Source: Apostichopus japonicus (taxonomy: Eukaryota > Echinodermata > Holothuroidea > Aspidochirotida > Stichopodidae). Taken from it: DNA of 64,000 bases. Positions within the stretch are counted from its first letter, which is position 1; each line of letters begins with the position of its first letter. This document shows positions 83 through 37,311 of this stretch, one piece after another. Both the position numbers and the translations under genes were made by a program. The stretch spans positions 18,878,054-18,942,053 of the forward strand of contig NC_092562.1 in NCBI RefSeq assembly GCF_037975245.1, given 5' to 3'. Under the pieces are notes generated by a model. It saw only the letters and a list, made by a program, of their open reading frames with translations, was not told the DNA's origin and did no database searches.

Positions 83-245
83 CTAGAACAAACCATTATG
101 GTACTCAGAGGCGAACACAGGCGGAGATTTAAAGTGGCCAAGGCAATTGACAGCACAGACAGTGACATAGTAGCGCATTGAAGAACTGTTCACTGTAATA
201 ACGGAATAACTACCATCATCGGGTACAATAGGATAGACTTCATTG
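83..245 (-). CDS. FN3/cytokine-receptor D2-like exon, second half
   Basis: The acceptor tcacatag sits just above 245 and the entry phase (2) fits the previous exon. The exon encodes the F and G strands of an FN3-type fold (YYVTVCAVNCLGHFKSPP). Two ends are possible. The first is a TAG stop at 83-85, giving a short secreted protein. The second is a weak phase-1 donor (AATG|gtttgt) ending the exon at 94, with the gene continuing left of the window. The second fits the family layout better, because a D3 domain and a membrane segment would follow. Confidence 0.65.
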
Positions 246-3200
246 CTATGTGATAAACAAAAAAAGAAATAGGTAACACAAGATACGTACTCATTATTAA
301 CAGGAAGCTGGACAATTTATTCGGCCCTTTAAGTTTCTGTGGAAATTAGCGGTTTTGCAACAAATAACTTCTTATAGGCCATGAAAACGTCAAACAGCAA
401 TACATGCACAATTAATAACTGAACATCAGGTCTCATTATGTGTTTGTGTCAATAGCAAAGACAATCATGAAATAGTATGTATGTGTGTACATATGGGTGT
501 ATGTATGTCTTTCCGTCCTCCAATTTAATGACTTTCAAAGATTCTACTGCTTTACACTAATTAACCAAAATGAAAACTTCAATTGACTGCAATCTCAAGT
601 ATTTAGCCAGACATTTATGCATCAAAATGTTTCCCAAACACAAAAGACTAAATTGTTTGCTGTTTTTCTTATCTCATCTATAGGTATATCTTATCTACTG
701 TGCCAGAGGCCAGCATTTTAAAGAGTTTGGAAACCAATTTCAATTCCAGTGGAATATACTTAAAAAGATGATCAGGCATTATCATGCCATGCATTTCGTC
801 TTCTAATGTTATATGTCAGATCATGTTCCCTTTTAGTTTGACCATTTAATCTTTGCGCTAAGTTTCAGATTGTGATTGATTCGGACAATTTCCTCAATAT
901 CATGATGTCAGGCAGGAGGCAGTGAACAAATTTATCAGGTATCGAATTGCAAAATGCTGGTATGCAAAATGGGTCCAGTTGCAATAGAAGTGTAAAGATG
1001 TATATCAGTTTTTGTACACAGAACAACCATAGTCTTTCATATGAGACACAAAGTCCATAGCCTTCAAAAGTGGCATGCCAAGATTTTTACACTGACAAGT
1101 AGTTCCCTGAGAGGTACTACTTACATTGTCCCGTCATTGTCTGGGGTGAAGTGCCATTGGTATCTAGTTTGGAAGGCATCGTAGGTGACTATGCCATCTT
1201 CATCATTAGTTAACTCATGCCATGTACAGTTGTAGATGCCTCTTAGCCGTGTCCAACAATCTGGGGCTGGGAATTTCCATTTAGAAGTATCTGTTAACAT
1301 TGCAAAAAGAAGGTACCAAAAAAAAAGTCCAATTTATTGTGTGGGGGGTGTCAAGCTAGTGACTGCATGGGAGGGGGTCTAAACACAGAAATTTAGCGAC
1401 ATAGATCAGTTCACTGGACTCTTTCTTTGATTGAAAGTGCTTATAAGTGCTTAAATATAAAAGCAAAACTTAGAGCAACAATGATGCTAGAATCTCAAGA
1501 CTCTGATATACATTTAAGACAACACAGCGACGCTGATATCCTTACTACACAGTGGAGTTTGGGGTCTGTAGAGTTAAACGGTGTGACAAACCTATACAAA
1601 TTAGGCCTCCTTTCAAACTTAATGTAACCTAATACTGATCACAAAAACAGCAAGCAATGCATGCCTTCTCATATCCTATGCCAAACTAATTGACAATCTA
1701 TGACACACTGCATCTATAAACCTTGTAGAAAACAATACAGAAGAAGAGCATGATTTGAATTGCCCCTCTTTTTTAAATAAAAAAAAAGGGACACACTACA
1801 CAGATGAAACCGTTCCCCCCCCCACCCCCCCTTCCCGTATCTTGTGAAGACTGCATCGACTCTTTGTCACGTCTCTCAAAAACACGTTGCCTATCTGTCG
1901 TACCTTTTGAAGAAGTCGCTTCCATCACCATATCATATGTATTGAGCCCATCCACTCATCTGTTCCTTTGAATTTATTTTCTTTCTTTCTTGTTTTCTCT
2001 TTCTTGCCCATGGTTTGACCAATTAATGGATGACTCATGCATAGGCTAAAGCCTTATATGTATCCCCAATGTTTCCCAGTTTGAGCATAGTACCAGTGTC
2101 TTTAGCTAACCGTGGGTATAGTTAGGGCGTTGACAAATGACCAAGGAGGGGAGGGGGGTGGGGGTGGAATGAACATGGTAAAAGTTATAACAAACGAGCA
2201 GGAACTGTTTCAGAGAATCCAATCCAATCCTGTTTCTGTAGGGGATTCTGCAGTGCGACAAGGGTGTACCTTAATACAGAAGGTCATTCTCATTTGCTAA
2301 TAAATTGGAGCGATGGGCACATATACATGCTATGTTTCCCCATGATTTTTTTCCTTTTCTTTGTCCAATAATTATTGCAAAAAGGAACACTTGAGTGCTA
2401 GAAATATTTAAGTACAGTAGCTTTCTTGAACTATTTCAACAAGTTGTGAAATAAATTAAGTTAATACTGTCTTTTTTGCAAGTTTATTACTTTCTTCATG
2501 TCAGTGTAAAGATTAATCACTAAGAAAAAATATGGTAAAAAAACAATTATCAAAATTTGCATAATATCACTGAGCTCACCTTTGACCTGTACTAGCTGGC
2601 TTGGTGTACTTCTGCTGTTGAGTAGGCATGAATAATCTCCGCTAGAAGCCGTGCTAACATTTTCGATTGTCAAATTCAAGCTCCCGTTGCTAAGGAGGTT
2701 GCCATCTTTGTACCATGCGACAGATGACCCTTCCGAGAGAGGAGGATCCGGTGGAAACTCTCCACAGTGTAAAGTGACAGTCTCGCCTACCTCATGAATG
2801 GACGGATCGCAATCTTCAAAGAGAAGAAATTAAAAATGTGAAGCATATGTGCAAAGAAAGCAAAAACAGTGTGAATAATACAAAAATATTATAATTTTGC
2901 TGTGGCTGCATGGAAGTTGATCGTTCAACAAAATTACTGAGAATTCTCTGAATCGGCTATCTAGGTCTAAACAACAGCTCAATGGACTGATTTGGTACTA
3001 AGGCGTGTGAAGATGCCGCAATTTTTTTGTTCAAATCTGGGCGATATGTTACAGTGGTGAAACATTGAAAAGAGTAAGATGAATGTTGGATGCCATCATG
3101 GCAATTCAACTGGAAAAAAAAAATGTGCAACTTGCTTTTCCATTATAATGTTTGAATCATTTACACCCATGTGCAGCTGCAGTAAGTTAACACACTAAAT

Positions 3201-6200
3201 ATATCACAGTTAAAGAATAAATCAACAGGAAGACTAAAAATAAGTAAAGTCAAGTTTTCATAGAAAACCGACGGTGGCGGTTGATGACACCATCCAAACT
3301 AAACACATGTGTATCTATTATATCTTGGGCTCGAAACACATGTGCATATATTATATCTTGGGCTCGAAACACAAGTGTATCTATTTTATCTTGGGCTCGA
3401 AACACAAGTGTATCTATTTTATCTTGGGCTCGAAACACAAGTGTATCTATTTTATCTTGGGCTCGAAACACAAGTGTATCTATTTTATCTTGGGCTCAAA
3501 ACACATGTTTATCTACAGTTATAGTCAGTTGGGGTAAAAAAAAACAAGGGGGTAGTTGGGGTAAAAAAAAACAACCCCTTTTTATCTAAGGGGAATATTT
3601 AGCCAAAGTTCCAATTTATTTTGGGTGATAGTCCTATATGTCTAGTTTATTATTATATAATTTCTGGAACTCTATGTCACTTCGCTGCCAATCACCGCTT
3701 CATCGAATCAAGCTAATGCTAAAATAGCGAAATTTGAAGTTTGTACCACATATCCGAAACTTTCTCCTGCATACCCAGCTTATATGATGTGGAAATTATT
3801 CCAGCAGTTACAGCATAGCAGTTAGTGATATTACACTCCCCCATGGTAGAATTACTCCAACTTCATTCACGCTTCATGGGGGGGCCTTGTTTTTTTTTAC
3901 CCCCAATAAATGATGTGAATGGGGTAAAAAATAACAAGTACTTTCCGGCTCCAATGTACTCCCTATTTTACCCGAATTGATTTTAGAGGTTAGGCAAATA
4001 GTTTTCATGTCTGTCATGTGTCAAAAATGTTAAATAATTGGGCAGAAGTAACTGAAATTGGCTCTACTCTAATGTTTCTACTATATGACACCACATTTGT
4101 GTAGCATCATATACACACTGTACAGTATGAATACGGCTGAGCATGACATATGACACGAGCCATCCATAATTACGAATTAAGACAATTTCACAATTTTTTT
4201 CCTTTTTCATGTAAAGGTAGTAGCTCATACTTAGATATAATTATATGCAAACATGATTTTAAGATACATTCATGAAGAAAATAGCTGTTTTCTAGCATTG
4301 TTTTTTTTTACCCCTGCATTGTTTTTTTTTACCCCGAATTAAGCAAATTTTGGGGGTAAAAAAAAACAACATTTTTCGCAAAAAACGACACTTTCCCTTT
4401 ACAAAAAAGTTATTTTTGTTAGATTCTCTTTAAGAGAATCCCACTCCACACACTTGGACATTGGAACCGAAACAATACCTCTTACTCATCAATTTTTAGA
4501 GCAAACTTTAGGTAAATTGTTTTTTTTCTACCCCACTTGACTATACTACCTTTGTTACTTGTATAAACCCTGATAACAGTACAGGGGCAACAGACACAGG
4601 GTGCATACATGTACCCCTTCCCCTATAGATCCCAAATTCAGTGAAATGCATTAACGGTGTCCCTTTTGATGAAGGCTATATGATGATTCCTTGCCATATA
4701 ATTTGCTCAAAATTCCACTAAACTGACTGATGTAGAAGCCAGCGAGTCAAATTTGTCCAAGAATTAAATGAGTGAGGATTACCAGAAGATGATCAGAAGT
4801 TAATCACCTCTTATTTGTAGCTCACTCACCTGTGTGCATATCGACCAATTAATTCACTGACGAGGACTTTTACAATATTGCATGTTTATTCTAAAAAATG
4901 TATTACAAACCATCATATATAGGCTATATCTAGGCCTACATGCAGCTGATTGCAAAAGGCCAGTGGGTAGACATGCATTCAATGGAATACCATTATTGAA
5001 GAGCTATATATTATATACATATTAAGCTGTATATTACAGTTTAAGAAAAACAATCCAACTAGTGACGCAGCTAAATCCGGTTGAAGAATCATTGTTATTC
5101 GATCTGCTTGACTGAAACCATTGATTCTGCAGACAGTATTCTTGTTTTCAAGGGATGCATTCAAAACTTCCCTTTACCTCAGATAATAACAATCATGGGT
5201 TGAATACTTTGATAATCAATATTTTGACAAAGGTTGCAAAATGGTAACAGGCAGTTCCTTTTTTTTAAATTTTATTATCATGCATAGATTGGCTTATAAC
5301 TTTGCCTGTACCTTTTATACAAAGCATTGCTTGTATACTGCTAACGTTATGTTGTATTGTATTGCCTATTGCACAAGAATAGTGTGTTGACGACGCACAG
5401 AAACTATATTCACAACCAATGAGTGCTTGAATCAATCGGTCACGACTCATAACTTGTGGATCGTTGGCATTTAACTTTATTGGAGACTTTCTGTAACATA
5501 TCAGGTCAAAATGTACATCCTCAAGAAAGCTTTTGATACAGCCAAGATTTTATCATTTTATGGCTTTTACAATTTAGTAACTTACATGAAACTACCACTT
5601 GTAGGAAACTTGATTCAACAGTATTAATGTTGCAACGATATTGTTACTATCGACACTGGCCAAAAAGGGGAATTTTAAAATCCCACTATCCACCCATACC
5701 AGTAACTAAAAATGAAAAATATATCTAACATTAGCCCATGCATTTGTGAAGGCACTTCCTATCATCGTTGGTCGTTCAATGTTGCGTCTTACTACTACAC
5801 TCTTAACATGACTGACTTCTAATATTAATATGAAAGATTCAATGTTTTCAAACATTTGATTCTTTCATTAATTCTTATTGAGTTCTCATTTGAAGCAAGA
5901 CTGCACCACTTTGGTGGAAGGAGCTACACAATTATAGGCTACTGCATAGCCTACAGTACATGTTGTTCATGAGATACGAACCATTGGTTTACTAGTAATA
6001 TGGACTCTGTTTAGCAGTTCCATTCAAATACCACAGCGGAATGCGGGGTTGATTTCTATCAAAATATTTCAAGCCAGCTCTGACAATAGCACGTTTGTCT
6101 CTAGGAAGCAATATCTGTTGTGAACTATCCGTAAAATGACGTAGATTTTACCCAAGTTGGAATATTCGGCAGATACCAATATAAACAATGCTAACAATCA

Positions 6201-8287
6201 GTGAGACACTCTCTTCATGAAAAGTCAAGAAATATGTCAACCCAGATTCCTTACCTTCTATTTCCTCTTCATCAGCGCCAAGAACGTAACAGGAATCCAC
6301 ACGAGCTGTGACAATGGAAACAAGATTTTTTTAAATTACAGTTCAAATGTCTGTTTTTATATTAATGTCAAGAGAATGTTTTATTCTTATATTCATGGGA
6401 CCGTACATCAAATCTTAGGTCACTTTGTACATGAAATATTTTCTTTATACAAACTTTAGTACTAAATCAGTAAAATCTTGAGTTTTGTTGCAAAATGCCA
6501 CAGGGAGGGTTACAACTGACTAGGGCTGCTTATGCTAAACAGTTTAATGTGAGGTTAATTGATGTGAAATTGTGTTTTTCCATATCAATTCCTTTCGCTC
6601 TTTCCAATGCAGCAATGAGCTGAAGCAAGAAAAACATCTTCAGCTTCCTATGGCTTCATCATAGAAACCTAACTTCAACTTGGTTTCTTAGCTTGAAACG
6701 GAAAATGATTGCTTTGTTAAAGAGTTGTCTTTCCAATGATCTAACTTTTCTCACATTCAAAGACAATCAGACTTGGGAGGGGGAATTAGAGAGAAAGACT
6801 TATCCAATCCGTTTAATTAGACTTCCCCTTTTCAATTTGCACAATAAACTATGCTCAACTGTTTTATAGTGCAGTTTCAACAGCATATCATTCCTTCCCT
6901 TTAATACAATAATAGTGACTACCGATATCCTTGAAATGAATTTGGAGAGATGGAGAAGTGTTTTCCTCAGCAATGTTACAATGATTCTAATTCATTGAGA
7001 TTTGCCACCGGGCAAGGTGTTGGCAAATCATGATTTCCTTGAAGTAAATCACTCCAAGTCACATCTGTGTAGCACTAGTATAACATTACCATGTCATGTA
7101 TGTACGTCCACTAATTGCAGGTTTTACGTTCAGCTAATTTGTGCTTAAAGAATTGATAATGATACATATTGATTCAACAGCTGTCCTCCTTGTGTAGATT
7201 TGGTACTAAATTACCTTGCAATAATTGTAGCAGGAATTCGAACAGGCAAAACAAGTTGAAGAGGCACTGGCCCTAACTTAGCGTTGTGTAGCCTGCAAAT
7301 TAGGCTAGGTCGGCTAACGTTAGTCCAGGCCTAACTTAGGCTAGGCTAACTTAGGCCCCAATGTTACGCCGGCCGCATTTAAGTAGGCCGAACAGTAGGC
7401 CTAAACCTTTATAAGTACTGATGAGTTGACATGTTCGTTCTTTGCATAATATTGACGTATATTAATATTATGTAACACACAATATATAAGTGATGAAATT
7501 TTAATTACCTGCAGGAAAATAGGCAAGGTATTGGTCCACAGCCTAATGTTACTGTGGGACTGGGAGTCTAGAATTGAAAATTAATACTACTACTACGTGG
7601 CCTAGCGGTTAACTACTCGACATGTGACACCACAGGTATTAATTTATGTGTTTGACACTGGTTCTGGTTATACGTTAGTCGATCGATAGTGTATTTGGAG
7701 CATAGAAGTTACACATATGGAGCGCCAAAATTTATCGCAGCATTAGAAACATTTGAAGAATTAAAATGGAAAGTGGTTTGCTGAAGTGACCATTGGACCA
7801 TATTGGTTTTTTGAGTAATGCACATACTAAAAAATTTGTTTATTATTTAGAATCACGGAATATGCATGAACAAGTTTCTTGTTACGGTAAGTTTTCATAA
7901 CTTCTCGCTTGACAGTCATTTGCCCTTTATAATTCGGAGGTGGGGTATATATGAGGTACTTTTCGGTAATATTCAAATGCTTTTTCCCCTTGTCAATCGG
8001 TTGATTTTATGATTTGCTGCAGTGTTTTCTATTTATTGTAGGAGCCAGGCAAAACTTCAATTTAAATGATTTCTAGGTTATTCTCACCTTAATGGAATTG
8101 AAACAGAACAGCTTTGAAATTATACAGATATCTGGGGAAAAAAACGTTCATCTTACCATCCCGGCATCGTTACATGTATACAAGTCAAAATAATATGATA
8201 CATACCAGACGCAGTCACCGAGGTAACACAGCACCAGAGCACTATAACCCGACTCCACGTGGATAGACTTTCAAAGCTGTTTGGTTT
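83..8287 (-). CDS. Ig + cytokine-receptor-like FN3 protein, N-terminal part of gene (5 exons seen)
   Basis: Joining minus-strand exons 8287-8206, 6305-6255, 2813-2580, 1290-1125 and 245-94 (or to 83) gives one open frame with matching splice phases (0-1, 1-1, 1-1, 1-2, 2-). The product starts with a hydrophobic signal segment (VIVLWCCVTSVTAS), then a short acidic linker, then an Ig domain with its two cysteines, a WYKDG tryptophan strand and an SGDYSC motif. Next comes an FN3-like domain holding C-W and C-x-W cysteines (PDCW, YNCTW) and a YYVTVCAVNCLG strand followed by a serine. This order, signal-Ig-D2 with C/C-x-W, is that of the IL-6R/gp130/CNTFR class of cytokine receptors; the family call is inference from motifs. 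The ATG exon was not found above 8287. The lower end is either a TAG at 83-85 or a donor (gtttgt) at 93, in which case the gene runs past the window edge. A generic secreted Ig/FN3 protein is the alternative. Confidence 0.7.
1125..1290 (-). CDS. FN3/cytokine-receptor D2-like exon, first half
   Basis: The exon has 166 nt, acceptor gttaacag, donor AT|gtaagt, phase 1 to 2. It encodes a proline followed by CW and, ten residues on, YNCTW. That C...C-x-W spacing is the first disulphide region of class I cytokine receptor homology domains. Confidence 0.72.
2580..2813 (-). CDS. Ig-domain exon
   Basis: The exon has 234 nt in phase 1-1, the usual phase for an Ig domain, with a pyrimidine-rich acceptor (ttcttctctttgaag) and donor G|gtgagc. 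It carries VTLHC, VAWYKDG, LNLTIENV and SGDYSC, the B, C, E and F strands of an Ig fold. Sites N-G-S and N-L-T could carry N-glycans. Confidence 0.85.
3301..3516. repeat. 33-bp minisatellite, six full copies plus a partial
   Basis: Units start at 3301, 3334, 3367, 3400, 3433 and 3466, and a partial one at 3499. Copies 3 to 6 are almost identical; the first two and the last diverge, the usual pattern of edge copies. Since 33 is divisible by 3, several frames stay open on both strands, but the peptides are only the repeat read as an 11-residue unit. It lies in an intron of the Ig/cytokine-receptor-like gene. Confidence 0.95.
3520..4545. mobile_element. MITE-like element with about 29-bp inverted ends
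   Basis: The left end (3520-3548) reads TATAGTCA, then a GGGGTAAAA... run into CAA. The right end (4517-4545) is its near-exact inverse, ending TGACTATA. The motif GGGGTA9CAA recurs inside at about 3555, 3885 (inverted), 4300 and 4320 (inverted) and 4357, so subterminal repeats are present. No coding capacity is visible. A TA target duplication, as in Tc1/mariner, is possible but not proven. It abuts the 33-bp minisatellite. Confidence 0.6.
6255..6305 (-). CDS. Ig/cytokine-receptor-like gene, linker exon
   Basis: The exon has 51 nt, with acceptor tgtcacag and donor G|gtaagg, phase 1 on both sides. It encodes a linker with one cysteine and an acidic end (DSCYVLGADEEEIE) that joins signal peptide and Ig domain in frame. 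Confidence 0.68.
8206..8287 (-). CDS. Ig/cytokine-receptor-like gene, signal-peptide exon
   Basis: The exon has 82 nt, with acceptor ttttcag just above 8287 and donor G|gtatgt below 8206. It encodes a hydrophobic run typical of a signal peptide, ending TAS. It is open from its first base but has no ATG, so an upstream exon must supply the start. It ends in phase 1. Confidence 0.7.
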
Positions 8288-20295: not shown

Positions 20296-23200
20296 GTTCG
20301 TTACTCGCGTAAAATGTAACAAAGGCAGCAATTTACACTGCCGTACCGGACAAACGTGAATGAACGGAGGTTTTATTAATTAACAGAGATTGAAATTATG
20401 TGTAACTTGTAACAGTGATCGGTTTTCGCGTAACTACTACCCACTACATTCTCTGTACATAGTGTTCCGTAACATTCTTGCTACGTTCATGGGTTTACGT
20501 TAACTAACTGCGCGTGTTATAATATAAGTAATATAGGCTAGGCCTAGTTGCATTGATAGGTAGGCCTCCTATAGGTGCCGTGTTTTTTAGTCAAATAGTA
20601 TTATTTACATAGTTGTAATTTGACACAATTTCAAGGATTATTCCACCCATTAGCAGAATTATACCGGAAACTTAAGGTCATGGAGTCTATCGTTAAAAGG
20701 TCTAGATGGTCTGTCACTTCAGCAGTCAGTCTTTGATCAGAGAGTCTCAACATGGCTTTTGTCAAAAAAGGTCTTGTCTCACTAATATCCTTGAGTTTAT
20801 GGAAGATGTAACAAGTTCACTTAATAGGCAGAGGTCTGTAGATGTTGTGTTCCTGGATTTCCAGAAGGCCTTTGATAAAGTTCCCCACCAGCGTCTTTTA
20901 CTTAGGCTGAAGAGCATGGGTGTCATAGGGAATTAACTGTCTTGGATCGGGAATTGGCTTGGTAATAGGGAACAGGGGGTGGTACTTAAAGGCTGTGCTT
21001 CTTCTTGGCAGAACGTTACTAGTGGGGTTCCACAAGGGTCTGTATTAGGTCCCTTGTTGTTTGTTGCCTATATAAATGACATCGACGGAGATATTTTGTG
21101 TAAAGCTAAGAAGTTTGCTGATGACACCAAATTGTATTCTGAGGTCTCTTCCAAAAGCGATTCTGAGAAATTTCAAGCGGATTTGGATAAGATTTTTTCC
21201 TGGTCTCAGGGGTGGCAAATGCTTTTTAATATTGATAAATGTAAGGTAATGCACATTGGTAGTAGTAACCAAAAGTTTACATACAATCTTAATGGTGTGG
21301 AGTTACAGGAGGTCTCTGTTGAAAGACACCTAGGTATCTACATTGACTCATCTCTGCAAACTTCTAAACATTGTCTTGAAGCTGCTAAAAGAGGTAATAG
21401 GGTTTTAGGTATGATCAAGAGGAACTTCAGATTTCTGAAAGAGGACATCGTAGTTAGGCTTTATAAGCAGTTGTTTAGGCCTCATCTGGAGTATGCTGTG
21501 CAGGCTTGGAACCCTTACTTTGCTAAGGATAAGGAAGTACTTGAAAAGGTCCAGAGGAAGGCTACTAGGATGATTAGTTCCTTAAAGGGGGTTCCTTATT
21601 GTAGGCGGTACAACTGTTGAATCTCACCACACTGGAGCTTAGGAGGTTACGTGGGGACTTGATCCAGGTTTTCAAGATTGTGTATGGTTTCGACAATTTA
21701 TCCTTTACCGACTTTTTCTTGTTTGCTAACAGTAGTTGTACTAGAGGTCATTGTCTTAAACTCCAAAAGTCACATAGTAGGATTAATATTCGGCTTAACT
21801 TTTTTTCTAATAGGGTTGTGAATGAGTGGAATGGTTTGCCTGAGAAAGTTGTACTTGCAAGTAGTGTGAATGGGTTTAAGAATGCTTTGGACAAGCACTT
21901 TAAGCATTGTAATCGGGTCTGAGTGTCTGTGTCTTCAGTTTTTTTCTCTCTCTATAGGGTCCTTGATGGGGACTTAAGTGTCCCTCCTGATCCTTTTTTC
22001 TACTAAACTAAACTAAACTAACTTATAATTAATGTATCGCGAAACTGGGGAATTTTTCCTTGCTTTGAACAGTTTGACTCCCAACTTTCACAGACACAAG
22101 CATAGGCCTAATTCTTTCTATTTCTGGAGGAATCTGGTCAACCCATGATGAAATCATATAGCTGAATTGATAGAACTAAATCATAAGCAAAAGCAGCAAG
22201 ACCGTTGTCACCATTATCTTTTAAAATAACATTAATGCCCTTACTACTGTAATACTATTAATAGTTTACTGTATACCATCATACATGTAGTTGTCCATAT
22301 TATGTGACAATCTAGCCTCCTTTTGCCCATTCACATGTTAAATAAATCTTATACTTATATGCCCAGGGCCCTAAGCCTTTATGAACAACAGGTAGGACTA
22401 GTGGCTTAACCCACATTTTGGAGGCCGAATTGCAACATAAACTGAATCCTGCTTAAGTGCCATACTCTTAAAGTTAAAGTTCAGTTTAATAGTAGAAAGA
22501 AAGAATCAAGAAGAGGGACAAATAGGCCTAGGCTTATGTTAGACCCTAAGTTCAAGGTAGTCAGTATAGGCCCCAAATTATAGCATGCTATAATTGCTAG
22601 AAGTTTTCCCAAAAAATGGTTGAGAGTGCATCAGGTTGGTCGGTTTTCATGTCCAGGCTCAATCTTGGGTGACTTTTCTTACAAAGTATCCCTTTAAGAG
22701 TGTGTCCAGACAAAAGTTCATTCTCATTTTATAGGCAGACTTTTCTGGGGGTTTTATAGCCTGATCTTAATTCTCATTATCATCATCACATAACGGTAGA
22801 CCGTCCCTCACTGTGTAAGTTGTCTCTGTCAGTACAGGTAGATACAATAGCCTTCAATGTGTCGTTTTTTTTTCATTAACCGGCTGTCAAACTTTCAGAT
22901 TGGATGACGTTAACAAATTATTAGCTGGTACACGTTTTTAACCCTATCGTGTCGAATGAACCTACGACTGAAACAAGTAAACACATGTCGTTAAAAATGA
23001 TTATGCTTCTCTTTTTTTTCTCGATATAGTCGATTTCGGAGAGCAGTACAACTCCCTCTTGTATGTTTCGGAGTATGAGAACTACGGGAGCATCAGTCTC
23101 TTCCGTTTCCATATACCGGAGGCGGTCGAGGAGGCATGCTGGAGCTTCATGATGAACAAGACTGCATCATGTCCAGACCGAGATATCTACATGTAAGAAT

Positions 23201-26200
23201 ATAATATCTCCCAAGTTCTCGGATGTTCTGGTTTCCTTTTATGTTATTAAAAGTATTTTCTTAGCCTCCTCATTGTCCTCATCCCCCTCCCTCCCTCCCC
23301 CCCCCCCCTTATGAGAAAAAAATAAGTATAATGCGTCTGGGCTGTGGAGTTTACACGGTTGTAGTTGCAAAATTATTTCTGCCAAAGTTATCATCTAATT
23401 CAACCCAAGAAGATCTGAATGCCACACCAACTTAGCTTTTCTTTTCAACTGCACAAAATACAAAGAAGTGATATATATATGTGATAAATCAATGTCACAT
23501 GTAAACCTATAGAAGAAATTCCTTAATGGCAAGATGCCAGGTCATTTGAACTTTACCATTCAGAGACTTGAGTCAATTTCCAGCAAAAAAGTCCTAAAAT
23601 CAGGACTGGAGTTAAGTCCCTAGCTCGAGTCATCGGTCATTCGTCCTAAGCTGTGTATTAAACGTTATAGATGTATTGCCATACTTCAGTGATTAGTTTA
23701 TACTTTTGAATGAAATATTCCAGAATCATCATCTTTGATTAAAATCATAAATACTGTATATCTTGGAAAACAGAACAGAAAAATATCAATTGAATTCATA
23801 AAACAGATTACTCTTTGGGATGAAATTTGTATTAAGGAGCTCAATTTCTGATATTGGTGTTCAGGGCATTGAAGTATGGTATGCCCGAATATCTTCACGA
23901 CCTTATCCAAGAGCAAACAACGGATAGACCTACTCGTTCCCAATACCTCTATCAACTTACTGTTCCTGTGACACGCACGAGAACCTTTGGTGATCGCAGT
24001 TTCTGCTATTCCGGCCCCGCACTTATGGAATTCGCTGCCAGTCCATCTGCGGGAAATTGATTCACTTGAACAATTCAAACATGCTATTTAAACTTACTTA
24101 TTTTCTAAATGCTACACACATCTGTAAAGCGCATTGAGCAACCTTTAGGTTGGATTCTGCGCTATATAAGACTGATTATTATTATTATTATTAATTGTTT
24201 CGATGCCCCCATCTTCTCTGTGACTGCTTCCAAGTATTGCATCTAGTTACATCATTGTAGTCTAGTTTTCAGTGTTCAGTGTCAGAGCAGATCAGTGATA
24301 AAACCAGAACATTATCATCCATTGGGGGGGTGGGGGTCCACTGACTTGGGATCCATGCCTTCGTCCCATGTCCATCGACAGTCAATGAAAATGTTCCGTC
24401 GGGAGATTTTTTCCAAAAGTATTTACTAACATTTTGTAAGCCTGCACTTAGACCTAATTGAAGCCCTAATTTATAGTCTAAACTACGCCCTGGAATGCAC
24501 CACTTGATTCATGCCACCCCACCCCCCCCTTCCCTCACCTATTTCAAATGTTTCAAATTTCATTTGCATTTATTAGCATAACTTTGCATTTATAAATAAC
24601 TATGTAGACCTAATTTATAGTCTGAAGATGCTTCAGAATGTGCCATTTCATGTCTAATATCTGAAACTTTCGACTGAGGGGGGGGGGGGCATTGGCAGAA
24701 AAAACCTCTAGCCCTTCTACATTGGAGTCACATTCAAGGAACCCACAGTCCCACCACACCTAATATAATTTATAAAATTTATTAGCCACTTATAGCCATG
24801 AAGGTTCATGCAATCATGCTCATAACAAACTCAGACATTGAAATTTCTAATTTGGTCCTCCTCCTCCCCCCCTCCCCCTCTTCCCTATTTGAAATCCTCT
24901 CAACTTTTTTTTCTTGTCTACTATCTTCACTCTTCAGATCGCTACATCTTGGTGGCCTGCCAATTGTCAATCCTTACAACACATCTTTTCCGGACAGTAC
25001 CGAGTTGAGGCACGCTAGCGGTTACAACGTTACATTCAATACGTCCAGCACTCAGCTACTTCCCAAGGTCTCTGTACATGGTCCTCAGCCTGGGGACTGG
25101 TTCATTATTGCATACAGGTTAAAGGAAGACATGGACAAAATTGATCAGAAGGCAAGTGACCGACCTAAACAGATTGACAATGGGAGAAAATGTGTTCTTT
25201 TCCGAATCTTTTCCCGAAGTCTAGTCATGGCTGTTTGAAGGAGAGAAGGGGTGTGGGTGTAACTTACTTTCACCAGATAAGCTCTTTTTGGAAAATCAAG
25301 TTAGTGGTCTGAGTTATAGTCATGGCTATGTTCCCCAAACTTTACATCCTAGTATAATCTCCTTAATGATTTTTCAAAGCCTAAAGCATCATGTATGTTT
25401 GTATGTATTTTAGCTCCTCCTGCAAGCAGGAACTCGCGAAGAAGCCTCATTGGCTTATCAAAGCCACAGGCTGACCGAAATCAGTCTCTTACATTCATAT
25501 TTAACGTCCATGATGATGAATTGTCCATTGTCAACAACTCTGTAACTGGACGACATACATTAATCTGCGAGTTACTCGAACCTGGGACCTTATGATTGGA
25601 AGGCACCGGCGTTAACCACTGAGCCAGCACTCCACTCATCACTCCATCATGGGTACAGTGAAAGCAGAACTTACAAACCTTGCCCTTCACTTTGTTCTGA
25701 CCCATAGACATCGTGGTCTGAAAAGAATTTTGATCAAATTTTAGTGGCCACTTTCCCATTATCCTGTCCCTTCTTCATCCCACCACCCTAATATCCCATC
25801 TCACTGAATTACTATAAAATCTTACTTTTAACTTCTTGCCTCAAGGATTTTCATAGCATAGAAGTTTTTCATAGAAGTTGTCATAGAAGTTTGCCATAGA
25901 CATTATTCATAGAAGTTTTTTACATATAAGGTTTTCATAGAAGTTTTTTACATATAAGGTTTTCATAGAAGTTTCCCATAGAAGTTTTTGGTTCCTTGCT
26001 AAAAGCAAAGGAACCTATGTATTCAGGTTGGCGTGTGTGTGTGTGTATGTGTGTGTGTGTGTGACGCTTTAGCTTGTAAGCACGATAACTCAACAAGGGA
26101 TTGACTGATTATGATCAAACTTGGTGGGTGGGTGGCCCATAGTGAGTAGATGAACCCTATTGTTTTTGGTGCCCACAAAGGTCACCAAAGGTCAGTTATG

Positions 26201-29200: not shown

Positions 29201-32200
29201 TGAGGGAGAAAAAAGCTGTCAAATAACCGTAGACAGTGCTCTCAGGGGCACTTGGTACTATTTAAAAATCGAGAAAGCCATCTCTGAAGATATCAAAGAC
29301 TTCAAGTTTGTTATAACAGTTGAGGAAGAAGGTAAGTTTTGAAGTTTTTGAGGATATGGAAGTTCTATTAAAGGAATAACCAAGGGCAGGGATTAAAGAC
29401 AATTTTTATTATTGAAAGACAATTTATATTATTCAGTAACCTCAAACTCTCTTTTATTTAATTATTAAGTTAACCCCTTCCTGTTTGACTGACTACACTC
29501 ACTTGAAAATCTGCTCCTAAAGCCTCACCACAATACACAGCGGGCCGCCATTAATTACGTAATACGCTTGAAATTTCGTATTGAGTTACCATCTGGACAA
29601 ATATTGGTCGTGCACCTTTTAGTTTTTGTCTCAAAATATCTGTTCTTGTAGTTGTGAGGAGGAAGTTAAGCCTGTTGCTTGCATTCGTAATTTCGTATAA
29701 ACCCAGTAAGTTGAGCAATAACTGATGTTTTTATTATCCTAAGGACGTCTGTAAAACCTTGTTTGAAACAATACTTATTGTATCTTAGTACCAGCCCTTT
29801 TTTAGCACTTTCATAGCAGATGAACCACATTTTATATTGCACCTCAGAATTTGGACTACAGGTTGCTATTGTCAACGGTTGAATCGGCTAGGGTCCGACG
29901 AACATCCATAAATTTACATATTGCTGTAAATATCTTTGTAAGTGAACCGTGAGGGAAGGGAAATAATTCTTGTATGTAAATTCCATAAAACAAAGAATGG
30001 CAGGCTGCCTTGAATTGGTATTAAATTGTGAACATAAAGTTACTAAGCAACGTCCCTACCTACATCTGCCCAAGGCTTTTACCTATTTCCCCTCTATTCA
30101 CCTCCCCCATAAAGATTGCACTAACAGCCGTTCACCTGCAACTTATGCCATCGGAGACCCCGAAGAGAGGCAAGTGGATTCTAACCAGGAGGATGACACT
30201 CTCACAATTTATGAGGATCTCTCGGACACTGACTGTGCTCCACTCTACCATCTCGTCTCTGTGAAGACCGCTTCAAGCTCAGCCAAGAAATTTGTGAAGA
30301 GGACAGAAAATGAGACTGATGTGTTCCCAGTGAAATCCCAGCAACCCATAGTCATGACCTTTGACCTAGACCCCATTGAAGACGTCGGTGGACTGTTTAT
30401 AGTGGAGGTCAATGCGTCCACACTTCCGGTGAGTAAACATGTCGGCATCGTGTAACAGTTATCTGTAAGCATGCTCGCCCTTCGAGTAGATTTGTACTCG
30501 ATCGTACTCTGAAATTTTTAAGAAATTTAGAATGGATAGTATAGTGTCAGATTGGGTACCCATACTCATGCTTAGAGCCATGTATTCATCATTGTACTCA
30601 CACCCAAAGGGGAATTCTATTTGTAGTCGTACTCACGCTTAGAGACATCTACTCATTCTTGTACTCACACCCACAGGGGACTCCTATATTTACTCGTACT
30701 CATGCTATTCTGTATAATCCTACAACAAGTCTGGTATGTTGTTGTTAGCTTCATCAAAATATGAATGTTAGAAACTAACTTGATACTTAAAGTTCTGGTG
30801 AAGACTCTGCAATATTTATTTTGTGATTCAGAAATGACATCGTATACAGCTGGTTCTTATTGGTGTGGGGGGGGGGGTTGTTTGTTCAAACCGAAGAGAA
30901 AGTATTAGAAAGAATTAAGAAATGTGTACATTCTCAAATGGAAGGGACATCGGTTAATGTTTGTGAATGTTGGCAACTTAACCAGTTGCTTGTGCGCATC
31001 AGGTAAAGATCGACAACATTAATGCAATAAGCTGCGATAATAACTTGCCATTTGCTTCCGATTTTACTTTCTTTCCCAGAATCCGTTAGTCTCGTTCTGC
31101 TTGCAAAAGATGGGTCCTGCCATCAAAGATAACGTCAAGTTTCACTGCGACAAGGATCGCCTCATTCAAAGCGATCTCTCTTCCCGCAAGAGGGAGCGTT
31201 GGATCATGCCATTTCCGGTCGTCGGTACTCTGTACTTAACGCTTCAAATGGAATGCTTTAATGATTCGTGAGCCATTTTATTTTTTTTATGATCATTAAT
31301 TATCAATGCTGTAGTCTTCTCAGAATGAAACAATTCAGTAAAATCATTGTATAAAGTTGGAATTGATGCCCTCAGTGTCCCTTTGTCATGAATGTTTTTG
31401 GGCTGTATGGTGCACATGTTCTTCTGTAGATCTGCTTTGTAGCACTGTGTTTGTATATTATGTTGTTGCCAGATATATTCAGGAAATTCCACCAAAAAAA
31501 TTCAGTTCTTTGTAAATGGAACATTCTTACAAGATTGGGCGCTTGAATTAATCTCAAATTTGGTCCAAACATTTTGAAACTTGTTCATATCCTCAACTAG
31601 CATGTGTTGCTTTTCATGGCCTTGCAGGCTTTTAAACAGAACTTCCATTGTGTGAAAATACTTGTTTTCAAGTGATTTGGGATTAATGTTTGAATCTTGT
31701 AAGGTGTATAGTTTCATGGACATCTCTGCATAGTTCAGAGTTGATCACCACGGCAACCCATGCATAACTTAATCCCTAGGCCGAACCAGTTTGGATTCTA
31801 AGTTTCCTATATTATATAATACCTGTAGAAAATTTATGTACTTGTCAAAAATAAAAATGAATATTTTACTCAAGGTAAAGATTAACCTTGGCTTATGTAT
31901 ACATCCTATCCTTTATTTTGAAGTTGGTCACAAGTTGCTCTTGTAATTATAGTAGGCTACATTCTTCTAAAAAAAAATTAAAAAAATAATAAACAAGGTA
32001 AAAATAATTTGGGGCATATTGTGCCTTTAGTAAAATAAAAATACATATATGGAACACTAGTAACTTCAAAAAAGATTTGTTAGCAAGTGGAAATTTATGA
32101 TTATGGAATTGCTCCAACCATCAATCACACAATATTCCATTCATGTTTGTGGCAATTTTCTTTCTTAGAAATCCAACTGAGTGTGGTGAAGAGGCAGAGA

Positions 32201-35200
32201 TTATTGTGAATTTATCGTTGGATCAGCAGTGTATTGGAGGCTGTGGAAAGAATGGCCTGTGCTCGGTCCGGTACAGGGCAGGCATACAATTCTTCTATTG
32301 TCGTTGTTACTATGGTAAGCACCAGCCAATAAAATGTGGTTGTTTTCTTTTGCTCTTTATTTTGTTCTAATCCACCCAGCCACATATAAAGGCCAGACCA
32401 AAAAGGATATCTAACGGAATAAATGTTCTTGCCACCCACGTTCCCTTTACCCTCCAACAAATCCCTCCACTCCATCTCTTCCCCCACAGATTTGACACCA
32501 GGTAGTTCTCCTTTAACTTTGAAGTGATACATACTCCAGTGTCTCAGAATTGATTGCTTAATAAAAAATGTTGGAAATTTTCTGCTAATTTAGGTTTAAA
32601 GATCTGCAATCTACTCCCTGGCAAAAATGGAACCTCAACCGGACAAAATACATTACATTCAACCGGCCGTATCTGGACGGTGTTTTCGACTCGCAGCGTA
32701 GAATATTTCTCTTACGATTTTCTCTTTACTCAGCCCGTCACCGTAAATTATAATTAGGTCCTCGTTAGGATAATTATTTCCAGCGACCAATCCCTGTCAA
32801 GTAAAACATTTTTGATATCGTGATACTCGTTTAATGCATGCAAATTAAAGCAAATCGAGGGACCTGAGGTATGGACACATCTATTGTGTTTCTCATGTTG
32901 AACATGTACATAGCGTATAAAGGAATGAAGTTAGTTTAAGACTGCGAGTTAAACCGTTCAGTTTGTTTCTATGTCACTGCTGGTCATCATCAATATTAGT
33001 TTTACCAATCAAGAGATCATTTGTGTCTGTTGCTAGGTTATACAGGCTTTGCCTGCACCGACAGTTCGGAGGCCTGGGCGAGGAGTTATTATCTGGTACA
33101 AGTACTGTTGTTGACCCTGAGTAACGTTGTGTTCCTGGTGGCTACCATCTTTGCCATCTACAGATATCACTTTGCAGAGTCAGTGTCATATTTTGCCACC
33201 ACAGTCTTTTCAACGGTGAGTACAGATTGTTCCCGTGACAGGGATTTGAAAGACTTCTCTGGGCTTTTTTCTTCTTTTTTTGGGGTAATGTCTTTTTGTC
33301 TTATTTTGAGACGTTGTATGATAATACATGATCTCTGTCGTAAGATTATGCCCTAGACTTATGAGTAATCTTTCTGCTTTGAGGGGTTGACAGCCTGCGT
33401 GGTATGCCTTAAGGTCATCAAAGAGTTTTAGTGAAAAATCCAATCCTAGGAAAAGTTTCTATTACCATGTTTTCAACTATATGGCATTCTCCAGGGTTGT
33501 GAAATATTCCCCCCACGTCTTTGTGTTCAGGTCAATGACACCATTTGATAAAAAAAAAGCCCCATCTCCACTCAATTCAATCGCAAATGGGATGTAATCT
33601 TCACATCTACATATGGTGTATGTCCTTTTCACTTAATGTTGAGTTGTTACATCCTCCCACTCTACGAAACACCGGCAAAATTTCATTCATATCAAAAATG
33701 CAACCAGTTGAAACCATTTCCAATTTTAATAAACTTTACTTAAGTCTGCAAACCTTTAAAGGTTCTCACATGAGTAATGTCACATGTTATCATTCGCTAA
33801 AAATTGAAAACTGCATGATATGATTGTAAAAACCCAAAAAAGCCTATTGTTATCTCCACTTGCTGGATTTGGTTATATTGTCAATCTTCATGATGCAGCC
33901 CTGGGATGAGTGTGTCTGTAGCATTGTTTTGTCTTATCGAGTTCTGATTTTCACGAAAGTGGTAATTTTTTCTTCACTCCTCTCTCACCTCACTCCATTC
34001 TACATTCAGAAGAGAGAGGAAGTGGAGATTGACCCTGAATAAAGGTCAATAGGGGCACGGTGCTAACACGTTACCCACTCTTTTAGGCTACATAGATTGG
34101 AGTGCATGTGTACAATGGAGACCAAAGTTATTATCATGGTTCGTAAATACCCAAACCAGTTAGTTTTGGGGGGAACCTTTTCAGGTACTCTTGTATTAAT
34201 GACCAGTTGTTGGAGAACAGCGCGTACACGTAACATCACACGCAGTAAGACCGATCAGTGACCACCCCGCTGGCACCCAACATGTGTATTACAGAGTATT
34301 GCAGGCCTGGACCTTATATCACTGGTTGAGCAGGGGGTGAGGGGGGGGGGGAACCCGGGAAAGAATGATCATGTGACACCTGAATTTTGACCATTTGACT
34401 TGGGTCGTTTCTTAGGGACTGTTTATAGGGGCAGTATGCTAAAAATGAGTTTGCCAATTAAATTATTTTTCTGTTTTTGCTGTTATCATTTCAGCTGTAC
34501 CATGCCTGTGACTCTAGCAGGGCCTGCGTGATGGACTATAGCACACTCCAGTTCTGCGATTTCTACTCTTCCTTCATGTCCGTATTCCTCACTCTGATAG
34601 CCATGGCGAAGCTGAACCCTACTCTGAAATCTACCGTCCATATGATAGGTATTTACTATACCACAGATCATCAAATTAATTATGAAATATTCATGATGTG
34701 ATCATCATTGTTTATCAGAGTAGCAATGAACAAGTGGATGGGGGGCACTGCATGAATCAACGAATCCTAAGCGTAGATCGGTTGTGCCTCCGGGCCAATG
34801 CTCTTTCGATAAACAAAGCCATCTGGTCGGGGAAGAGAAAACCCAACTTATTCAACATCAAAAGATGATGCATCTCGAGACACATTTGACACATATTGTC
34901 CAAAAAAAAGATGATACGGAATGTGTTCCATTTAATCTTCTCTTTATGTCTGAAAGGATTTTTTTTTTATTGGTCTGTATGCTTTCAGAATAAGCTGTCT
35001 GTGTATGCAATGTGCATACTCCAGCTATCGAAATGTTAAAATTTATCAGCCTTCAGTTTGTGCCGTAACAGAGGCAAAACATCCTAAGAACTGAACCAAA
35101 ATGTTAAACATGGAAATGTATCTTTCTTTGAAGTTAACACTGGTTTTCATAAAGTATATATATCCTCGTGAAATCTCACCAGCTGCTTCATTACAACCAT

Positions 35201-37311
35201 ACTTTTCATCAGTAAATGTCTGAAAAATTAGTCATTGTGTGAGGAATTGAAAAATAAAATAAACAAAAATAAAAAGACTGCTGGTTAAGTTTCAAGTAAG
35301 TAAGTAAGCCAGTCTGAAAATCCTCTACATTCTATATCCAGATAAAGCTTGCAATTGAACAATTTGAAAGAAAATAAGTTACGTTGTCAAAAGTGGACAA
35401 TTTTCAAACATTTTCGACAGAAACCTTACATTTCCATACTAGTAATGCAAGAAAACAGCTATACTCAACAGTACCAAAGGTCAGGAATTAACTTCTCAGC
35501 ACTACGTTGATTTTTACTGGGTTTTTTTCTTCTCCCGTTTCCTTTCGCAGGTGCCTTTTTCTGTGCCTTTGCGGCTCAGTACGATCGTTTCAGCCTCTGG
35601 GCCATCCTCGTTCCTGTTTTGTCTGGTCTAGCGGTTATGTCAGTCTCGTGGGTAAGATATTATCATACTGCTGTATTGGGGAAAAAACATTTAGCTTTTG
35701 ACAATATTCCAGCCTTTCTCACTCACTCAAAATATTCATTTAATTTTTTGAATTTTTTTTCTCTGTTTCATGATTTTCTAAGGAAAACAGATGTAAACTA
35801 TGTATTTTTTTCTTCTTAATATGGTAATTTATATTTTTCAAGCTGATGGTCATTTCCAGTCAGTGGATTACAGAAGTTGATAGGCATTTAATAAGTTTGT
35901 ACCGAAGCCATTCACCAAAGCTAAGCTGTAGTTACTTTTCGTGGAATCATCGACTTTTGCGTTTTGAGAAGGCGATCATTCATCAGAGAATGAAAATGGT
36001 GTTTCTAACCTTAAAAGTGAAATGATGGGAAATTGCAAACAGATTTCTGAAGATTGTCATTACTTGGTTTTTTTTTCATCTTTATTAATTTTTGAAGTCA
36101 AACCCTTGGACAAAAAAATGTTGTTCTAAATTAACATAAGGTTGGAGTAGTAAAGGATAAAAAAGGAAAACCAAGGTTTGCCAGATGTGAAGTTACCACT
36201 CACAGTGTACCACAGCATGTGAAGGATAAAAGATTAACGAAACTATTAAGTGAAGTAGAAAGAAGCGTAGCTTTACGGTACCAAGATTCAGTGCAAATTT
36301 ACAGTTCGTGTTGTGTCACCGTGAATACATTTAACCACAAATATTATCAGAAGCTTGTGAACATCTCGAGTAGAGAAAAATGTTCGAGAGTGCTTAAATT
36401 GTTTTGTAAGTGTCTGTATTATTTGCCCCTGTAAAACATTGTAGCGGTTCTTCAGAACAAAATGATGGTTCTTTTTTTATTCCTTTTTTATACTCATGCT
36501 TTTTTCCCTCTGTTTTGTACTATGATCCCATTTATGTTGTAGATACTGCCTCAGTTGCAGTTTCATGATAGTTTGTGTAATTAAGGAGTATTTTGAAGGG
36601 AGAAAAGGAATTGGACTGGTTGTATTTCTGAGATATTAGGATGCTAGGATTGCAGCCACTTTTATCACATCTAGCAATTTTGGTGTTATAGTCCCTGTAA
36701 AACATTGTATCGGTTCTTCGGAACAAATTGGATTTTTTTTTAGTTTTTTTTAAAATACTCACGCTCTTTTCCTCTGTTTTGTACTATGATTCCATTCATT
36801 TTGTAGATACAGCCTCAGTTGCAGTTTGAGATATTTTGTGTAATTTAGGAGTATTTTGAAAGGAAAAAGGATTGGATTGATTGTGTTTCTGAGATGTTAG
36901 ACTTGTAGCTATATAAATCAAGGGATTAGAAATTCAACCATTTTTTCCTCATTTTCCAAAAAACAACAAAAAAACTGTCTATGGCATTGTCTTTCTTCGC
37001 AGGGACACAAGATGTACCAGCGTAAGCAACTTTACCCCTCCAAAAAACGTTGGATAATCTTCATAATTCCAGGGATAATTCTAGCTCTCATAGGCTTGAT
37101 ATTCACCTCAGCTCTGGAAACCGATGCCAACTATTTTATCATGCATAGCATCTGGCACATCTGCATGGGACTCAGTGCGCTGTTCCTCCTCCCGCCGAAA
37201 CCGACGCAACTGAAGAGGCAGGACTCGGAAAGGGAGCTGTTGGACGTTAATTTAATACGAGGTCCAAACTCAGAGGAACCGGAACCCTATTCTTTCATGA
37301 CTGGAGAGTGA
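20226..37311 (+). CDS. PGAP6: PGAP6/TMEM8-like GPI-processing membrane protein, complete, 12 exons
   Basis: The twelve exons join in frame to 751 codons, close to the length of vertebrate TMEM8A. Residues 1 to about 20 form a signal peptide. Residues 24-455 are an extracellular TMEM8-type region with landmarks such as LLYVSEY, PGDWFIIAY and GLGKDCRY. Residues 477-511 form an EGF-like module with six cysteines (477, 481, 487, 500, 502, 511). A multi-pass membrane domain fills about 518-715. It holds the CREST-superfamily residues: FSTLYHACD (S563, H567, D570) and HSIWH (H697, H701). Known family role: PGAP6 is a cell-surface GPI-specific phospholipase A2 that releases GPI proteins such as CRIPTO; TMEM8B is the near paralogue. 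Conservation of the S/H/D/H/H set suggests an active enzyme (inference). Whether it is TMEM8A, 8B or their common ancestor cannot be told here. Confidence 0.93.
20636..22019 (+). mobile_element. 5'-truncated CR1/L2-like LINE (reverse transcriptase), inactive
   Basis: Inserted in PGAP6 intron 1 in the gene's sense orientation. Reading across breaks shows reverse transcriptase blocks: QHGF..KRSCLTNILEF, VDVVFLDFQKAFDKVPH, SGVPQGSVLGPLLFVAYIND, KFADDTKLY, then thumb and C-terminal LRRLRGDLIQVFKI and NEWNGLP. FADD holds the catalytic aspartates. A TAA at 20934-20936 interrupts the frame, and a frameshift occurs near 21610-21620. The endonuclease domain is missing. The 3' end is a (CTAAA)n tail ending near 22019. 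The clade (CR1/L2/jockey group) is inferred from motif style. Confidence 0.88.
23030..23192 (+). CDS. PGAP6: PGAP6-like exon 2
   Basis: 163 nt, acceptor cgatatag, donor AT|gtaaga, phase 1 to 2. It encodes SLLYVSEYENYGSISLFRFH and two cysteines of the ectodomain. Confidence 0.9.
23840..24193 (+). mobile_element. 3' end of an L2/CR1-type LINE
   Basis: A fragment in PGAP6 intron 2 encodes the C-terminal reverse transcriptase signature (FRALKYGMPEYLHDLI, TRTRTFGDRSF, then LWNSLPVHLREIDSLEQFK after a frameshift near 24025). The 3' tail follows: AAGCGCATTGAGCAAC, GCGCTATATAAG and (ATT)n at 24176-24193. It is a dead 5'-truncated copy and distinct from the LINE at 20.6 kb, which has a different tail. 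Confidence 0.82.
24938..25151 (+). CDS. PGAP6: PGAP6-like exon 3 (GC donor)
   Basis: 214 nt, acceptor cactcttcag. It encodes PIVNPYNTSFPDSTELRH and PGDWFIIAYRLKEDMDKIDQ. A GT at 25118 would break the next exon's frame. The donor that keeps frame is AAG|gcaagt at 25152, a GC-AG intron with otherwise ideal consensus. The exon leaves in phase 0. Confidence 0.9.
25395..25640 (-). mobile_element. tRNA-derived SINE, same family as 18.5 kb
   Basis: Read on the minus strand from about 25640. Box A TGGCTCAGTGG is followed by a decayed box B (GGTTCGAGTAAC). The body shares the GCGAGTTCCTGCTTGCAGGA segment with the 18.5-kb copy and ends in an ATACAT-type tail. It lies antisense in PGAP6 intron 3. Confidence 0.82.
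25853..25989. repeat. Degenerate CATAGAAGTTTT tandem repeat, split by an element
   Basis: Repeats of CATAGAAGTTT with variable spacers run to 25989. The same motif resumes at 27187-27218, on the other side of the element at 25990-27164. So the element probably inserted into an older repeat array. Confidence 0.7.
26179..26194 (+). promoter_or_regulatory. Perfect DR4 nuclear-receptor-type site in a repeat
   Basis: AGGTCA-CCAA-AGGTCA is an exact direct repeat with a 4-base spacer, the form bound by TR and LXR type receptors with RXR in animals. An identical site lies at 26327-26342. Function is not shown by sequence. Confidence 0.4.
26327..26342 (+). promoter_or_regulatory. Second identical DR4 site in the same element
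   Basis: The half-sites and spacer are the same as at 26179-26194, within a longer shared AAGGTCACCAAAGGTCA string. This shows internal duplication inside the element. Confidence 0.4.
27278..27411 (+). CDS. PGAP6: PGAP6-like exon 4
   Basis: 134 nt, acceptor taatctgcag, donor AG|gtacct, phase 0 to 2. It encodes GLGKDCRYTIQPTLVYSQVL, a conserved TMEM8 stretch. Confidence 0.9.
28310..28386. repeat. (CTAC/CTAT) tetranucleotide microsatellite
   Basis: Runs of CTAC and CTAT alternate through about 77 bases in PGAP6 intron 4. Confidence 0.92.
28421..28530. repeat. 55-bp tandem duplication
   Basis: GTTATTTGTCAT..CCATACAC and the following sequence to GATCAGCTCT occur twice, starting at 28421 and 28476. 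Only a few bases differ, so the duplication is recent. Confidence 0.88.
29048..29331 (+). CDS. PGAP6: PGAP6-like exon 5
   Basis: 284 nt, acceptor ctacgtag, donor G|gtaagt, phase 2 to 1. It encodes ectodomain with paired cysteines (SQCSGQL, GQCPLNI, HSCDEG, KSCQITV) and GTWYYLKIE. Confidence 0.92.
30115..30428 (+). CDS. PGAP6: PGAP6-like exon 6
   Basis: 314 nt. The acceptor is ccataaag at 30114, not the nearer aacag, because only it keeps the frame (phase 1). The donor is CCG|gtgagt, phase 0. The exon encodes an acidic stretch (SNQEDDTLTIYEDLSDTD) and FIVEVNAST. N-glycan sites NET and NAS are present. Confidence 0.88.
31080..31267 (+). CDS. PGAP6: PGAP6-like exon 7
   Basis: 188 nt, acceptor ctttcccag, donor TC|gtgagc, phase 0 to 2. 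It encodes NPLVSFCLQKMGP and PFPVVGTLYLTLQMEC, the end of the ectodomain before the EGF module. Confidence 0.92.
32169..32314 (+). CDS. PGAP6: PGAP6-like exon 8 (EGF-like module)
   Basis: 146 nt, acceptor tttcttag, donor G|gtaagc, phase 2 to 1. It encodes CIGGCGKNGLCS and FFYCRCYY, five of the six EGF cysteines; the sixth (FACTD) is on the next exon. Confidence 0.93.
33037..33215 (+). CDS. PGAP6: PGAP6-like exon 9 (end of EGF, first membrane spans)
   Basis: 179 nt, acceptor gttgctag, donor ACG|gtgagt, phase 1 to 0. It encodes YTGFACTD, then VQVLLLTLSNVVFLVATIF as a membrane span, and ends VFST, the start of the CREST S...H motif. Confidence 0.94.
34495..34648 (+). CDS. PGAP6: PGAP6-like exon 10 (LYHACD motif)
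   Basis: 154 nt, acceptor catttcag, donor G|gtattt, phase 0 to 1. It begins LYHACD with the likely metal-binding/catalytic H and D, then LQFCDFYSSFMSVFLTLIAM. Confidence 0.94.
35551..35651 (+). CDS. PGAP6: PGAP6-like exon 11
   Basis: 101 nt, acceptor ctttcgcag, donor TGG|gtaaga, phase 1 to 0. It encodes two membrane segments around AAQYDRFSLWAI. Confidence 0.92.
36425..36910. repeat. Tandem duplication of about 265 bp in PGAP6 intron 11
   Basis: CCTGTAAAACATTGTA.CGGT, TCTGTTTTGTACTATGAT, CAGTTGCAGTTT and GGAGTATTTTGAA all occur twice in the same order, in blocks starting near 36427 and 36692. The copies differ by substitutions and small indels. Confidence 0.85.
37003..37311 (+). CDS. PGAP6: PGAP6-like exon 12 (last, HSIWH, stop)
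   Basis: Acceptor tcttcgcag; 103 codons including the TGA at 37309-37311. It encodes a membrane span (IIFIIPGIILALIGLIF), the NYFIMHSIWHICMG motif with two histidines, and a cytosolic tail rich in charged residues. Confidence 0.95.
   Translation, partial: GHKMYQRKQLYPSKKRWIIFIIPGIILALIGLIFTSALETDANYFIMHSIWHICMGLSALFLLPPKPTQLKRQDSERELLDVNLIRGPNSEEPEPYSFMTGE

Follow-up and report, generated by a model that had tools for sequence, protein, structure and literature searches.

Five exons of Apostichopus japonicus that probably form the 5′ half of a class I cytokine receptor gene

Class I cytokine receptors are recognised by motifs in two FN3 folds. In the accessible part of the published definition, the first fold carries the pattern C-x(9-10)-C-x-W-x(26-32)-C-x(10-15)-C and the second fold the motif WSxWS (PMC1963337). 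The same passages describe a gp130-like receptor in Ciona, with a gp130-like splice pattern (PMC1963337). For the purple sea urchin, a 2012 paper states in its available section that no cytokine receptor signalling system is apparent (PMC3296744), whereas in one tree of a 2026 survey the IL6Rs of human, mouse and fish have those of sea urchin, hemichordate and sea squirt as near neighbours. In another tree of that survey the invertebrate IL6Rs cluster apart, amphioxus excepted; within its available text, the other receptors of the group occur in vertebrates only and IL6R is traced to molluscs (PMC13203501). In addition, the accessible text of a sea star study mentions contigs annotated as interleukin-6 receptor (PMC4503460). 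Invertebrate receptors of the gp130/IL-6R type are already reported from sea squirt, sea urchin, hemichordate, molluscs and arthropods. A first-pass annotation of the DNA discussed here called such receptors poorly described outside vertebrates and insects, a statement made out of date by the excerpts on the sea squirt (PMC1963337) and on the sea urchin, hemichordate and mollusc (PMC13203501). Our literature search returned nothing relevant on the intron phases of gp130/IL-6R-type receptors.

The window analysed here is a stretch of 64,000 nucleotides. At its left end, five minus-strand exons share a single continuous frame with GT/AG borders throughout. Their joined product of 228 residues runs from a hydrophobic signal-like segment through a linker and an Ig domain (D1) to an FN3-like domain (D2). 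The exon at 8287-8206 (82 nt; phase 0 in, 1 out) lies between the acceptor TTTTCAG and the donor GTATGT. It lacks a Met and encodes the signal-peptide-like segment KPNSFESLSTWSRVIVLWCCVTSVTAS, whose hydrophobic core follows an Arg and whose hydropathy peaks at 2.52 over VIVLWCCVTSV. The linker exon ARVDSCYVLGADEEEIE (6305-6255, 51 nt, phase 1-1) is identified by its splice borders and frame, and the Ig exon (2813-2580, 234 nt, phase 1-1) by its splice borders and by the Pfam families Ig_3 and Ig_2. D2 is interrupted by an intron: its first half (1290-1125, 166 nt, phase 1-2) contains the C-x9-C-x-W motif and is assigned by a class I profile on the joined D2, while its second half (245-94, 152 nt, phase 2 in, 1 out) contains the F-strand motif YYVTVCAVNCLG. 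The cumulative phases across the five exons are 1, 1, 1, 2 and 1, and the annotated consistency of all splice phases is thereby borne out.

Scored by position weights, the four inner donors fall at percentiles 0.984-0.999 among all GT on the minus strand. For the five acceptors the range is 0.935-0.990 among all AG on that strand. The donor of the last exon, ATG/GTTTGT, is weak (percentile 0.861 of GT on the same strand). The left limit of the gene had been drawn at position 83, which is the end of an open frame and no exon border; the last exon most likely ends at 94. On the other side, the frame is closed 5′ of 8287 without a Met and the start codon must therefore lie in an earlier exon. A first-exon scan from 8.3 to 24.7 kb gave 44 donors scoring at least 5 and 15 in-phase ATG options, each below 60 residues. 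The option with the best donor was 13720-13700, and no convincing start exon was found among the 15. The annotated succession of signal peptide, Ig domain and D2 thus stands as to frame, borders and Pfam Ig match, but comes without Met or start exon and with a weak last donor. Rfam and tRNA scans gave no match.

The window holds several repeats. A 33-base tandem repeat (6.5 copies, 95% matches) lies at 3301-3515, in the intron that follows the linker exon and precedes the Ig exon. The sequence GGGGTAAAAAAAAACAA occurs seven times, once with a mismatch, in both orientations at 3531-4369, where 0.01 occurrences are expected; within the window it is confined to this intron stretch of about 840 bases and is perhaps a nested inverted-repeat element. 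Elsewhere, 21-base units are arrayed at 54751-55554, a 20-base minisatellite with 16 copies lies at 45784-46103, and the palindrome TAGGCCTA is found 12 times in the whole window against 0.71 expected. This palindrome occurs in echinoderm DNA, a weak pointer to the taxon.

Other coding features are also present. Two DUF3522 matches lie on the plus strand, at 33000-33353 (E 5e-5, short of the cut-off) and 36901-37308 (E 2.4e-8, past it), suggesting a gene at 33000-37308 which we take to be TMEM8/PGAP6-like. The ORFs 24786-25235 and 29967-30452 resemble this gene by eye and have no Pfam match. On the minus strand, an F-box match at 49130-49630 (E 1.5e-10) is accompanied by a WD40 repeat at 45049-45426 (E 1.6e-4, short of the cut-off) and, by eye, by further WD40-like ORFs; together they suggest a gene at 45049-49630 that is probably FBXW9-like. 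A reverse transcriptase fragment at 20937-21617 on the plus strand (RVT_1, E 1.1e-13) probably belongs to a non-LTR retroelement. No link to cytokine signalling was seen for the TMEM8/PGAP6-like gene, the F-box/WD40 gene or the reverse transcriptase fragment, and ten further window ORFs were without a Pfam match at E 0.01.

The Ig domain is the best defined part of the product. The segment 2829-2580, which comprises the Ig exon and the 16 intron bases before it, matches two Pfam families past their cut-offs, Ig_3 at E 4.6e-7 and Ig_2 at E 8.4e-7; in the joined protein Ig_2 remains past the cut-off (E 2.9e-6) and Ig_3 falls short of it (E 4.2e-6). Exon 2813-2580 encodes an Ig domain. It is bordered by phase 1 introns at both ends, and its join to the D2 exon is in phase 1. 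An Ig domain N-terminal to D2 is a feature of IL-6R/gp130 groups 2 and 3 and is found here. A signal peptide is another feature of these groups, for which the exons offer the hydrophobic signal-like segment and no start Met. When the whole protein was compared with the PDB, the 60 of 93 matches listed fell mostly on Ig domains of other protein families, headed by VEGFR2 and Fc receptors, and included no cytokine receptor. The Ig domain alone therefore does not name the family. Folded alone, the Ig exon reached a mean pLDDT of 56.6, which is too low for a search by fold.

D2 extends from KFPAPDCWTRLRGIYNCTWHE to YYVTVCAVNCLGHFKSPPVFASEYHN. Both motifs reported by the first-pass annotation, C-x9-C-x-W and YYVTVCAVNCLG, are present in it. 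The segment CWTRLRGIYNCTW in exon 1290-1125 matches C-x(9-10)-C-x-W exactly; this motif occurs in 4 of the 726 window ORFs of at least 40 aa against 1.4 expected after shuffling, which alone is not significant. The F-strand pattern was found in one of these 726 ORFs, a circular count since the pattern was written with the D2 sequence in view. The second cysteine pair, W-x(26-32)-C-x(10-15)-C, is absent from D2, where 61 residues separate W from the next C and 3 residues separate C from C. In the profile alignment Val and Ser occupy the two columns of this pair, and two D2 cysteines instead form C-x3-C in the F strand. Class I membership is unproven because the second cysteine pair is absent and WSxWS would lie beyond the window. 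It is a doubtful suggestion, which we put forward with reserve, that in an invertebrate gp130-like receptor the first cytokine-binding domain no longer has the second canonical disulphide as a pair and has two F-strand cysteines in its place, a rewired binding module, perhaps in a lineage to which cytokine receptor signalling was formerly denied.

Searched alone, D2 gave no Pfam match up to E 10, fn3 included, and six PDB matches, all chance-like (best E 0.31). A class I D2 profile was therefore built from the D2 domains of seven human class I receptors, with the window D2 left out; two of the seven sequences rest on PDB entries, CNTFR having been verified against PDB chains and IL-11R taken from a PDB alignment. 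The ranking set of 2728 sequences comprised 2000 D2 shuffles, 726 window ORFs and our 2 own sequences. The window D2 scored 9.9 bits and ranked second, one shuffle being higher at 10.3. Its score was reached by 5 of 20000 shuffles, and by 283 of 20000 when the C and W positions were kept. On a longer Ig+D2 profile the joined protein came first with 12.5 bits, 1.0 bit ahead of the highest decoy, a D2 shuffle (11.5 bits); the decoys were D2 shuffles and window ORFs and not shuffled versions of the joined protein. D2 alone scored 6.7 bits on this profile (rank 8 of 2728; reached by 29 of 20000 shuffles). The profile search proposed by the first-pass annotation thus yielded a Pfam Ig match and the 9.9 bits of D2, and left D2 without a Pfam match.

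Known domains give a scale for these values. In HMMER bits on the D2 profile, the held-out class I domains scored 26.1 (GHR), 19.5 (IL12B), 13.1 (EPOR), 9.8 (IL4R) and 4.1 (IL2RB); PRLR reached 74.5, gp130 D3 15.9 and CNTFR D3 2.8. Five ordinary FN3 domains, at 4.7, 4.0, 1.1, -0.3 and -1.7, all stayed below the window D2. The class II domains gave 12.5 for IFNGR1 (domain 1), above the window D2, and 4.6 for tissue factor. With hhalign, the window D2 aligned to the class I D2 profile at 47.5%, over only 18 columns (YYVTVCAVNCLGHFKSPP). The class I comparators gave 92.2% (GHR), 85.9% (IL12B), 19.8% (EPOR), 18.2% (IL4R) and 2.0% (IL2RB), and the others 1.8% (IFNGR1), 0.4% (tissue factor) and at most 4.1% (five FN3 domains). 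With moderate confidence, D2 appears to behave as a distant class I D2, with the reservation that HMMER can give a class II domain an equally high score. To judge from these comparisons, D2 is probably of receptor type.

Several other explanations have to be weighed. An ordinary Ig-FN3 cell-surface protein, such as an adhesion molecule, a receptor kinase or a phosphatase, with its extra cysteines coincidental, would agree with the top listed PDB Ig matches (VEGFR2, Fc receptors, CD276 and similar), with a D2 that matches no receptor family in Pfam or PDB, and with the presence of the C-x9/10-C-x-W motif in four ORFs. However, Pfam gives D2 no fn3 match either, the five ordinary FN3 domains score well below it on the class I profile (-1.7 to 4.7 against 9.9), and the C-x(9-10)-C-x-W pair belongs to the class I definition as excerpted (PMC1963337); we regard such a protein as unlikely. 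The high HMMER score of IFNGR1 would fit a class II (interferon-type) receptor-like domain behind the Ig domain, but the low score of tissue factor and the hhalign values (1.8% for IFNGR1, 47.5% for the window D2) point the other way. A preceding Ig domain and a C-x9-C-x-W pair are moreover class I features in the accessible part of the definition (PMC1963337), and the class II assignment is hardly credible.

The D2 segments 1290-1125 and 245-94 might also stem from another gene or be non-exonic, the Ig exon alone being real. Such open frames are common (247 of at least 60 aa in the window) and the last donor is weak; yet the phases agree at every join, the splice sites are strong at the acceptors and at the donor at 1125, and the two halves of D2, taken together, fit a single domain profile in the right order, which makes this explanation quite improbable in our judgement. 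A soluble or membrane-tethered, non-signalling co-receptor of the CNTFR, CRLF1 or IL-6R alpha type is a sub-form of the explanation that we prefer, and their probabilities overlap. The Ig-D2 layout is common to these receptors, and the Ig exon is CNTFR-like by eye (VTLxCG, NGS, SGxYxC), but nothing within the window separates the signalling from the non-signalling type; the co-receptor form is a tentative possibility.

In our view the five exons probably come from a class I cytokine receptor gene of gp130/CNTFR/IL-6R layout, the soluble or tethered co-receptor form included, and make up its 5′ half. This gp130-type reading is favoured because the phases are consistent and the splice sites at the joins mostly strong, because a Pfam Ig domain is followed by C-x9-C-x-W as the available definition asks (PMC1963337), and because D2 ranks second of 2728, above the five FN3 domains, and exceeds EPOR, IL4R and IFNGR1 with hhalign. 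Furthermore, D2 is split by an intron, which agrees with the complex gp130 splicing of vertebrates and Ciona and differs from the single-exon CHD of Domeless, as the excerpt describes them (PMC1963337). The reading is weakened because no Met is present, D2 has no Pfam match and no PDB match beyond chance, hhalign covers only 18 columns and IFNGR1 scores higher, and because the second cysteine pair is absent, 283 of 20000 shuffles with C and W kept reach the D2 score and D2 alone is eighth on the Ig+D2 profile. The annotated likeness to an IL-6R/gp130/CNTFR N-terminus is accordingly upheld in domain order, phases, first cysteine pair and profile rank, and lacks the backing of Pfam, of PDB matches beyond chance and of a second cysteine pair.

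The gene product looks like a class I receptor and probably works like one. In the layout envisaged, the signal peptide would be followed by the Ig domain as D1, and D2 would be the first FN3 domain of the cytokine-binding module. Everything from D3 onward, the ligand and the JAK-STAT pathway, we infer by analogy only. The remainder of the gene, left of the window, would encode D3 with WSxWS, possibly more FN3 domains, and a membrane segment with Box 1. A secreted helical cytokine would bind at the D2/D3 elbow, receptor chains would pair on the cell surface, and bound JAK would be activated and STAT phosphorylated. Alternatively, the product may be a soluble or tethered co-receptor resembling CNTFR or CRLF1.

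If the rest of the gene fits, the thin record would gain an Ig-plus-CHD receptor from an invertebrate, its D2 split by an intron. It would bear on the time of origin of the gp130 layout and of its splicing, a matter on which the 2012 denial in the sea urchin (PMC3296744) stands against the 2026 IL6R listing (PMC13203501), each as far as the available text goes. The finding in itself is no surprise.

The vertebrate CNTFR alpha, IL-11R alpha and IL-6R alpha resemble the window gene in having an Ig domain followed by a D2 with C-x(9-10)-C-x-W or nearly so, and in a late strand that ends N-x-L-G; the CNTFR and IL-11R letters come from the PDB, and IL-6R has the same arrangement. They differ in keeping the second D2 cysteine pair, where the window D2 has Val and Ser, with C-x3-C in the F strand. 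The gp130 of vertebrates and the gp130-like receptor of Ciona share the Ig-CHD order and, in the passages available, a complex splicing of the CHD (PMC1963337); gp130 (group 2) has an FN3 stalk, a membrane segment and Box 1, whereas the window gene is read only through D2. The sea urchin and hemichordate IL6Rs, compared by description only, are alike as reported invertebrate deuterostome receptors of the IL6R group in the accessible text of the survey (PMC13203501). Lastly, Drosophila Domeless is likewise an invertebrate gp130-like receptor, but its CHD is described in the excerpt as a single exon (PMC1963337), in contrast to the D2 spread over two exons here.
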